From Terriglobales bacterium (lineage in GTDB: Bacteria > Acidobacteriota > Terriglobia > Terriglobales > Acidobacteriaceae): a stretch of 64,000 nucleotides of DNA. The position numbers were made by a program, and so were the translations under genes. The stretch covers positions 1 to 64,000 of the forward strand of contig DATMXP010000018.1 of assembly GCA_035561515.1 (NCBI GenBank). The letters are read 5' to 3'. The notes beneath the pieces are model-generated. The model saw only the letters and a list, made by a program, of their open reading frames with translations. It made no database searches and had not been told where the DNA came from. The number at the start of each line of letters is the position of its first letter. Positions within the stretch are counted from its first letter, which is position 1. Shown here in pieces: positions 23,280 to 25,933 of this stretch.

Positions 23280-24707
23280 GTGACATCGACAGCCACAACC
23301 AGCGCCGATCAGATGCGGTCGGAGAAGCGGAACGTCGCCCAGAACTCGGTCTGGGCAGCGTTGGGCATTACGGGCCTGAAGGTCGTCGTCGGTATCACAA
23401 CGGGTTCTCTCGGCATCTTGTCCGAGGCGCTTCATTCGGGTCTGGACCTCGTCGCCGCCGTCATCACCCTGTTCTCGGTCAGAGTTTCCGACAAGCCTGC
23501 CGACCTCGACCACCAGTACGGACACGGCAAGTTCGAGAACTTCTCCGCGTTTCTGGAAACTGGCCTTCTCCTGTTGACGTGCGCATGGATCATCTGGGAA
23601 GCAGGGAAGCGGCTGTTCTTTCATGAAGTCGAAATCGAGCCCAGTGTCGCTGCGTTCCTCGTGATGTTTTTCTCCATTGCCGTGGACCAGTGGAGGTCGC
23701 GAGCCCTGAAGAACGTCGCGGACAAGTACGACAGCCAGGCGCTCGCTGCGGACGCGCTGCACTTTCGGACCGATATATGGTCAAGTTCCGTCGTCATCCT
23801 GGGATTGGCGCTAGTCTCAGTCGGCCGTTACTGGGGGATCCCTTGGCTTCGCATTGCTGACCCGCTGGCCGCGCTGGTAGTCGCCGGAATCGTGATCTCT
23901 GTCAGTTGGCGACTCGCGCGTCAGACGATCGATGCGCTTCTCGACGCCGCACCATCGGGAGCGAGGAACCAGATTCTGGATGCGGTGGAAAAGGTGGACG
24001 GCGTCATTGAGGTTGAGCGCGCCCGTATTCGTCGGGCCGGAAATCGGTATTTCGCCGATCTGGCGATTGGTCTAAGCCGCAACGTCACATTTCAACGGTC
24101 TGAGCAGGTTACCCGCGAAGTGGCGGAGGCGGTGCGCCGTATCCTCCCCGACGCCGATGTCGTGGTACACCCGACCGCCCGTGCGGTATCCACCGAGAAC
24201 GTATTCGACCGCATCCGTGGGGTAGCCGCGTCGAGTAACCTCAACGTGCACGATATCAGCATCCAGGACTTCAACGGCCGCCTTCACGTGGAACAGCATC
24301 TTGAGTTGGACGAAACCCTGAAGCTGAAAGACGCGCATGATCGCGTCACCGAATTGGAAGCGGATATTCGGGCCAAAGTGCCCGAGATCGATTCGATTCT
24401 GACCCACATCGAAAGCGAACCGGCGACGATAGAAACGGCCGAGCATCTCGAAGCCAACGCGGACCTCGAACGCCGGATGAAGGAAGCTGTTTCTGACTTT
24501 CCTGGAATCCTTGATATGCACGAAGTGGTCTTCAAACGTGTGGGCGAGAAGCGTTACGTCTCATGTCACTGCACTATGGACGACGAGTTGCCGATGTCCA
24601 GGGTGCACGACTTGATGACCGCATTGGAGATCCGCATCAAGAACATGGACCCGAATTTATTCCGAGTGCTGATTCACCCGGAGCCCAGCACGGACAATCT
24701 TCGGTAA
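23280..24707 (+). CDS. Cation diffusion facilitator (CDF) family efflux transporter
   Basis: A 475-residue metal/proton antiporter. The N-terminal membrane domain carries paired metal-site motifs: 'SEALHSGLDLVAA' (HxxxD) and 'ALHFRTDIWSS' (HxxxD), with 'DHQYGHGKFENF' between. The cytoplasmic part is unusually long, about 265 residues, and appears to contain more than one CDF C-terminal ferredoxin-like repeat ('VHPTARAVSTENVFDRIRG', 'LTHIESEPATIE', 'VLIHPEPSTDN'). The GTG start lacks a clear ribosome site; ATG 23313 is an alternative. The transported metal is likely Zn, Fe or Mn. Confidence 0.88.
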   Translation: MTSTATTSADQMRSEKRNVAQNSVWAALGITGLKVVVGITTGSLGILSEALHSGLDLVAAVITLFSVRVSDKPADLDHQYGHGKFENFSAFLETGLLLLTCAWIIWEAGKRLFFHEVEIEPSVAAFLVMFFSIAVDQWRSRALKNVADKYDSQALAADALHFRTDIWSSSVVILGLALVSVGRYWGIPWLRIADPLAALVVAGIVISVSWRLARQTIDALLDAAPSGARNQILDAVEKVDGVIEVERARIRRAGNRYFADLAIGLSRNVTFQRSEQVTREVAEAVRRILPDADVVVHPTARAVSTENVFDRIRGVAASSNLNVHDISIQDFNGRLHVEQHLELDETLKLKDAHDRVTELEADIRAKVPEIDSILTHIESEPATIETAEHLEANADLERRMKEAVSDFPGILDMHEVVFKRVGEKRYVSCHCTMDDELPMSRVHDLMTALEIRIKNMDPNLFRVLIHPEPSTDNLR

Positions 24708-24753: not shown

Positions 24754-24993
24754 ATGACTCCAAAAATCATCCTGTTCACGCAGCCCGGTTGACCCCCGTG
24801 TACATGGGCGAAGTCCTACCTCTCGGAGAGAGGGATTCCATTCGAAGATCGTGACGTTAGCAGTGACCCGCAAGCTGTCGAGGATTTAATCTACAAGTAT
24901 CAGAGCCGTTCGACGCCCACATTAGTCATCGGCGAAGAGGTAATGATCGGATTTGACCCTGAAAGACTCGACCAGCTTATCGCCGAGACATAA
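24754..24993 (+). CDS. Glutaredoxin-like selenoprotein (UGA-encoded Sec in a UxxC motif)
   Basis: A 79-codon frame from ATG to TAA interrupted only by TGA at 24790-24792, codon 13. Read as selenocysteine it gives 'FTQPG-U-PPC-TWAKSYLSERG', exactly the glutaredoxin active site with Sec replacing the first Cys of CPPC. Downstream are the cis-proline 'RSTPTLVIG' and 'GFDPERLDQLI', so the whole thioredoxin fold is intact and collinear. A 6-bp stem with a GGA loop begins 26 nt after the UGA. Selenoprotein glutaredoxins are known in other bacteria. Neither selA, selB, selD nor tRNA-Sec is in the window, so decoding is inferred. Otherwise it is a pseudogene or base-call error. Confidence 0.75.
24809..24844 (+). 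promoter_or_regulatory. Candidate bacterial SECIS element
   Basis: The upper stem CCTCTC (24819-24824) / GAGAGG (24828-24833) is perfect and has a GGA apical loop. A lower 4-bp helix CGAA (24809-24812) / TTCG (24841-24844) closes it across an internal loop. The loop begins 32 nt after the in-frame UGA and its first base is G; both agree with bacterial SECIS rules (loop about 16-37 nt from UGA, G at loop start). Confidence 0.65.
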
Positions 24994-25933
24994 TCATCCC
25001 GTCCGCGGATACCTGTTCATCGCGGCCGCCACTATTTGCTGGGCGATTTCCGCCACTCTTGGCCGTGCGGCATTCACAGGCAAGCTGTTTGGTTCAGGTC
25101 AGGCGCTTGCTCCCATCGACCCATTGATCCTGGCGCAAAGCAGGACGACCATTTCCTTCCTGGTGCTGGCCCCAATTCTGCTGGCATTTCGTGGCCGTTC
25201 CGCATTGGCCATGCCGAGAAAAGACTTCTTACGAGTGATGTTGGTGGGAGTGGTCGGTGTGGCTGCTTCCAACTACTTCTACTATCTCGCGATCCAGCGG
25301 ACGAATGTTGCGACAGCGATCATTCTGCAATACACAGCGCCTGTGTGGGTGTTGCTGTACATGGTGGCTCGTGGCCTGCAACGCGCGAGTTTACAGAAGA
25401 TCGTTTCCATAGGCGTGGCACTTCTGGGCACTGCGCTTGTGATAGACGTCTTTACCGGCGATGGCTTAAGGACAGACAGGCTGGGTGTTACAGCGGCTAT
25501 GCTGGCATCGCTTTCTTTTGCGTTCTACAACGTCTTCGGCGGCAACGTGGTGCAGAAACATGATCGCTGGAAGGTCGTGCTGTACGTCTTTCTCGGAGCC
25601 GCTGCATTCTGGGCCATTGTGAATCCTCCGTGGCGCATCATCGCGGCCCATTACTCATCGCAACAATGGGTGTTCCTGTTTGTGTTTGCCGTGATGTCGA
25701 TTCTGCTTCCGTTCTCTTTTTACTTTGCAGGACTCCAGCATCTCGATCCTACGCGGGCAATCGTCACCAGCTGCCTCGAACCGGTGTTCTCCATCATCAT
25801 CGCTGCGGTAACCTTGGGCGAAGTGTTAGGCCCGATGCAGATCATCGGAATGACGCTGGTGCTGGGGGCAACGCTGATCGTTCAGATGCCGGATCGAAAG
25901 GGAAGCGCGGTAATCGTTGAGCCGATGGAGTGA
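24953..25933 (+). CDS. EamA/DMT-family transporter
   Basis: A 326-residue protein with ten predicted membrane helices in two EamA repeats ('GYLFIAAATICWAISATLGRAAF' and 'GVTAAMLASLSFAFYNVFGG'), a drug/metabolite-type exporter or permease. The only start that retains the first helix is TTG, preceded at 12 bases by GAAGAGG. It lies inside the last 41 bases of the glutaredoxin-like gene, suggesting coupled translation. Substrate is unknown. Confidence 0.82.
   Translation: MTLKDSTSLSPRHNHPVRGYLFIAAATICWAISATLGRAAFTGKLFGSGQALAPIDPLILAQSRTTISFLVLAPILLAFRGRSALAMPRKDFLRVMLVGVVGVAASNYFYYLAIQRTNVATAIILQYTAPVWVLLYMVARGLQRASLQKIVSIGVALLGTALVIDVFTGDGLRTDRLGVTAAMLASLSFAFYNVFGGNVVQKHDRWKVVLYVFLGAAAFWAIVNPPWRIIAAHYSSQQWVFLFVFAVMSILLPFSFYFAGLQHLDPTRAIVTSCLEPVFSIIIAAVTLGEVLGPMQIIGMTLVLGATLIVQMPDRKGSAVIVEPME

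Follow-up and report, generated by a model that had tools for sequence, protein, structure and literature searches.

The locus considered here raises the question of whether a redoxin gene broken by an in-frame UGA, found in a genome of the order Terriglobales, encodes a selenoprotein and, if so, what kind of redoxin that selenoprotein would be. The window (the whole stretch of DNA that was analyzed, 64,000 nucleotides) carries at 24754 to 24993, on the forward strand, a gene for a glutaredoxin-fold redoxin (grx), recognized with Pfam, NCBIfam, and AlphaFold, that specifies 79 residues followed by TAA. With TGA entered as selenocysteine (Sec; U), its translation is MTPKIILFTQPGUPPCTWAKSYLSERGIPFEDRDVSSDPQAVEDLIYKYQSRSTPTLVIGEEVMIGFDPERLDQLIAET. 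The first-pass annotation, made from the letters of the window, had described a 79-codon frame with a single break, a UGA at the position of the first Cys of a CPPC motif, and translation bears this out: the UGA at 24790 to 24792 on the forward strand (residue 13, predicted to be read as Sec) is the sole in-frame stop and stands in the homologue column of that Cys, and the resolving Cys16, the cis-Pro (TPT), and the GFDPERL segment are all intact, as had been described. Ordinary gene calling would cut grx in two at the UGA. The prediction of a selenoprotein made at that stage is now supported by the Sec machinery of the genome, by UGA/Cys exchange among homologues, and by a covarying hairpin downstream of the UGA, and we place the probability that grx encodes a selenoprotein at about 0.95, actual Sec insertion being presumed from known biology.

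A check of the genome containing the window (60 contigs, 99.5% complete) for the Sec machinery found selA, selB, selD, and a tRNA-Sec gene, the protein-coding genes all being full length (558.9, 401.7, and 377.7 bits, respectively). The selD match has a UGA of its own at codon 11, so that selD (G000:C44:151587-152516, locus L091) is itself a selenoprotein gene (AAGUASKL), and a formate dehydrogenase gene on the window's own contig (G000:C18:261109-261864) also contains a UGA (NQARIUHS); besides grx, therefore, the organism has at least two selenoprotein genes of classical types. A single tRNA-Sec match in the genome lies above the Rfam cut-off (64.6 bits), and ARAGORN calls the same gene tRNA-SeC with anticodon TCA; its D stem is 6 bp, its variable arm is long, and its discriminator base is G (not U73). 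ARAGORN draws the acceptor arm of this tRNA (L011, 1497 to 1595) with its eighth position mismatched (C-A). Sec-Grx is reportedly paired with Sec-MsrA, a partnership said to have been described by Kim and colleagues in 2011, whose paper is in the reference list of PMC13188914; when this was checked here, both MsrA genes of the genome were found to be without UGA.

Alignment of homologues, the comparison by which the first-pass annotation had proposed to judge the codon, revealed UGA/Cys exchange at exactly this position. Close grx homologues were present in 51 of the 200 genomes of the order that were surveyed, the codon for the first active-site position being UGA in 29 and a Cys codon in 22, and every aligned Acidobacteriota homologue has UGA or Cys in the Sec column, one Ser excepted. 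In a Terriglobales homologue (L026), the Sec/Cys position is occupied by Ser (SLPC), so that only one active-site Cys would remain. Other families of the phylum have UGA forms as well, with the motifs UGAC and UAAC. In a collection search, four Terriglobia or Acidobacteriaceae records had a UPPC homologue, an actinomycete MAG had USAC (with UGA), and Silvibacterium had CPPC; other records had CLSC, and one had SLPC. The presence of selA follows the same division, selA being found in 28 of the 29 UGA genomes versus 13 of the 22 Cys genomes (Fisher p = 0.001) and, when UGA genomes are compared with all other surveyed genomes, giving p = 1.7e-10, both values being uncorrected for relatedness; the 29th UGA genome (G144), outside the selA-positive 28, has a tRNA-Sec match at 63.1 bits. 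The best fit to a tree of 57 sequences has six Sec/Cys changes, and well-supported branches require at least three of them; the shortness of the protein makes this tree weak. Within it, a mainly Sec clade includes three Cys copies (G125, G150, and G064), an arrangement that suggests loss of Sec to Cys. Downstream of the UGA, dN is 0.17-0.24 versus a dS of 1.9-2.3, and the resulting dN/dS of ~0.1 denotes strong purifying selection, indicating that grx is not a pseudogene. One genome of the survey (G186) holds a decaying second UGA copy (L085, on contig C107; UPLS), broken by TGA TGA before GFDP and lying beside an EamA gene, as well as another divergent UGA copy (L084; UMFC).

Beyond the UGA, the first-pass annotation had seen a 6-bp stem with a GGA loop resting on a 4-bp lower helix. 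The 6-bp stem proved to be conserved, covarying, and beyond chance. This bSECIS upper hairpin (CCUCUC-GGA-GAGAGG; 24819 to 24833, forward strand), whose apical GGA loop at 24825 to 24827 lies 32 nt past the UGA, is paired in 98.9% of cells over 30 distinct UGA sequences and shows nine double changes in the stem, C-G to U-A in six sequences and U-A to G-C in three. Its covariation score and its number of double-changed cells were matched by none of 500 shuffles, slid controls brought pairing down to 44-73%, and a separate consensus fold recovered these six pairs alone. The hairpin alignment excluded the three UGA sequences that diverge most (L084, L085, and L027), in which four to five of the six pairs are kept; in the Cys homologues, on the other hand, the columns are mostly unpaired (0-5 of six pairs). 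Only 1.6% of trials in which grx was recoded synonymously produced this stem. The lower 4-bp helix is present in this sequence but is not conserved, with 65% of cells paired and no clear covariation excess over shuffles, and it was dropped as part of the conserved element. The 6-bp hairpin alone has a folding energy of -6.9 kcal/mol, against a published bSECIS rule of at or below -7.5 (PMC13188914), and the whole local fold, at -16.6, is not unusual for its composition when folded as a single sequence (z = 0.43). Folding energy alone proves nothing, and it is the sequence comparison that carries the case for the predicted hairpin. A Cys copy (CAPC; L053) from a selA-positive genome (G125) has an 8-bp hairpin, TTTCCTT GAGG TCAAGGGAA, at the SECIS place, which is possibly a fossil SECIS after loss of Sec to Cys.

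These data bear on several other ways of reading the UGA. It could be a nonsense mutation in a decaying pseudogene, or a TGC or TGT misread in one assembly; an in-frame stop at codon 13 would look like this, and genuine decay of a UGA copy is known in a relative (L085 in G186). However, the same codon is UGA in 29 genomes of the order, strong purifying selection acts downstream of it, and the hairpin is conserved. A base-call error in the window is very unlikely because the same UGA is found in independent assemblies, and this recurrence, together with a dN/dS near 0.1, refutes pseudogene and sequencing error alike, to which we assign almost no chance of being right. Alternatively, a tRNA resembling tRNA-Sec might decode the UGA as Cys or Ser, given that selC* tRNA-Cys with a UCA anticodon occurs in other phyla and that allo-tRNAs are found in Acidobacteria, including Silvibacterium (PMC7609411). 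We consider such decoding very improbable here, since the sole tRNA-Sec match above the cut-off combines its UCA anticodon with a D stem of 6 bp, a long variable arm, and a discriminator that is G rather than U73, the Sec-making SelA and SelD are present, and UGA-Grx tracks selA.

The UGA might also be a true stop, either with a downstream restart that gives a truncated protein or with grx acting only as a leader for EamA, in line with the location of the EamA start inside grx in many genomes. Yet both sequence and frame are conserved across the UGA, in the N-terminal strand and in the active-site region, Cys homologues run uninterrupted, and retention of Cys16 would make no sense in a protein without an active site; the probability of a true stop is negligible in our estimation. 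Under the selenoprotein reading, a ribosome would arrive at UGA 24790 and SelB with Sec-tRNA(Sec), bound to the hairpin at 24819 to 24833, would insert Sec, giving a 79-residue UPPC redoxin as the product. The Sec selenolate would be the nucleophile attacking disulfides or peroxidised partners, Cys16 would resolve the mixed selenyl-sulfide, and reduction would come from a thioredoxin-reductase-type or other thiol donor, not from glutathione.

The earlier label of glutaredoxin holds for the fold and for the Pfam Glutaredoxin family (PF00462; E 1.2e-14, 54.7 bits versus a gathering cut-off of 22.9) but not for the classical class, the product being nearer to YruB and BC3987 by profile, by sequence, and by fold. 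The best NCBIfam match is GlrX_YruB (TIGR02196), for which the score computed with Sec entered as Cys, 87.1 bits, is just under the curated cut-off of 88.55, hence our use of the term "YruB-like." The Uxx-star family (NF041212) is likewise glutaredoxin-like and has Sec at the same place, but the match of grx to it (E 6e-16, 58.5 bits) is below the curated cut-off of 66. By sequence, the closest solved protein is Bacillus cereus BC3987 (3zij; E 2.3e-17), which is also the best PDB match of the AlphaFold model of the product (pLDDT 94.4), with a TM of 0.88-0.91 and 46% identity. PDB 7c10 ("cGrx1"), which we take to be the C. oremlandii protein, matches the model with a TM of 0.86 and 32% identity. 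The CPPC redoxin BC3987 is classed with the Cp9/YruB and NrdH redoxins, of which Cp9 receives electrons from an enzyme like thioredoxin reductase and passes them to a peroxiredoxin (PMC3720550). The grx product is like these proteins in having a CPPC-type motif, a Thr four positions ahead of the nucleophile, and a Gly-Phe matching GF66-67 (PMC3720550), whereas the nucleophile is Cys in BC3987 and Sec here. The product therefore belongs with the YruB/BC3987/NrdH-like CPPC redoxins and not with the classical glutathione-dependent glutaredoxins. A search of the genome for GshB (TIGR01380) gave no match, which makes glutathione an unlikely donor, and the grx product is probably not glutathione-dependent. 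Its role would most likely be that of a Sec-boosted dithiol redoxin for a peroxiredoxin, a reductase, or a similar partner.

The genomic setting of grx is that of a gene between two transporter genes. Upstream, a cation diffusion facilitator (CDF) transporter gene (23280 to 24707, forward strand; PF01545, E 6.5e-46; TIGR01297) ends 46 nt before the start of grx, on the same strand and in a neighborhood kept in relatives, and CDF and grx are probably in one transcription unit. Downstream lies an EamA-family transporter gene (24953 to 25933, forward strand; PF00892, E 1.5e-36), the sole start candidate of which, a TTG at 24953 in the +1 frame, overlaps the final 41 nt of grx; the overlap with the next transporter gene reported in the first-pass annotation is thus real. 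A search of the forward strand for a terminator between CDF, grx, and EamA found none. In 26 of the 29 UGA genomes, grx is followed by EamA. Most relatives have a TTG within grx as the EamA start, and the ATG, GTG, or TTG candidates for it lie solely inside grx in 21 of the 35 loci with an anchorable EamA start; several Cys copies have no such start codon, and there the best candidate is a CTG overlapping the grx stop (CTGA). From the recurrence of the overlap in most relatives, it is reasonable to infer that EamA would be translationally coupled to the Sec gene. Such coupling could make the operon selenium-gated, in that ribosomes would halt at UGA 24790 when selenium is short and the coupled EamA would not be made, an extension of the gene arrangement that we regard as unlikely. 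A literature search for Sec-dependent translational coupling found nothing specific.

Sec glutaredoxins are already known, and neither this lineage nor the CDF-grx-EamA operon is described in the literature surveyed. Selenoprotein glutaredoxins have been described in Geobacter, Moorella, and Alkaliphilus (PMC1794560), selenoprotein Grx is listed as an established family (PMC13188914), and Acidobacteria are known to have the Sec trait (PMC1794560), with one species in PMC12013277. The Sec-Grx of Geobacter, Moorella, Alkaliphilus, and C. oremlandii (PF00462, UxxC) resemble grx in the UGA at the first active-site Cys, the small glutaredoxin fold, and the Sec trait (PMC1794560, PMC13188914), whereas grx differs in its UPPC motif, its YruB/BC3987 subgroup, its Terriglobia lineage, and its CDF-grx-EamA operon. 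NF041114 (UXX-star 1) is listed as UxxT (PMC13188914), whereas grx has the resolving Cys16. The literature search, with supplements and subscription papers outside its scope, met no mention of a Sec-Grx from Acidobacteriota. With this locus, Terriglobia gain a widespread Sec-Grx lineage, present in 29 of 200 genomes of the order and also elsewhere in the phylum, and the compensatory changes in the grx set make for a clear comparative SECIS. Coupling of EamA to the UGA, if real, would mean that Sec decoding controls a neighboring gene, and if the operon is selenium-gated, the UGA would be a regulatory switch for a transporter besides being a Sec codon. From an evolutionary point of view, the natural Sec/Cys pairs of one redoxin, several of them in the same conserved operon, constitute a natural experiment on the retention and loss of Sec.
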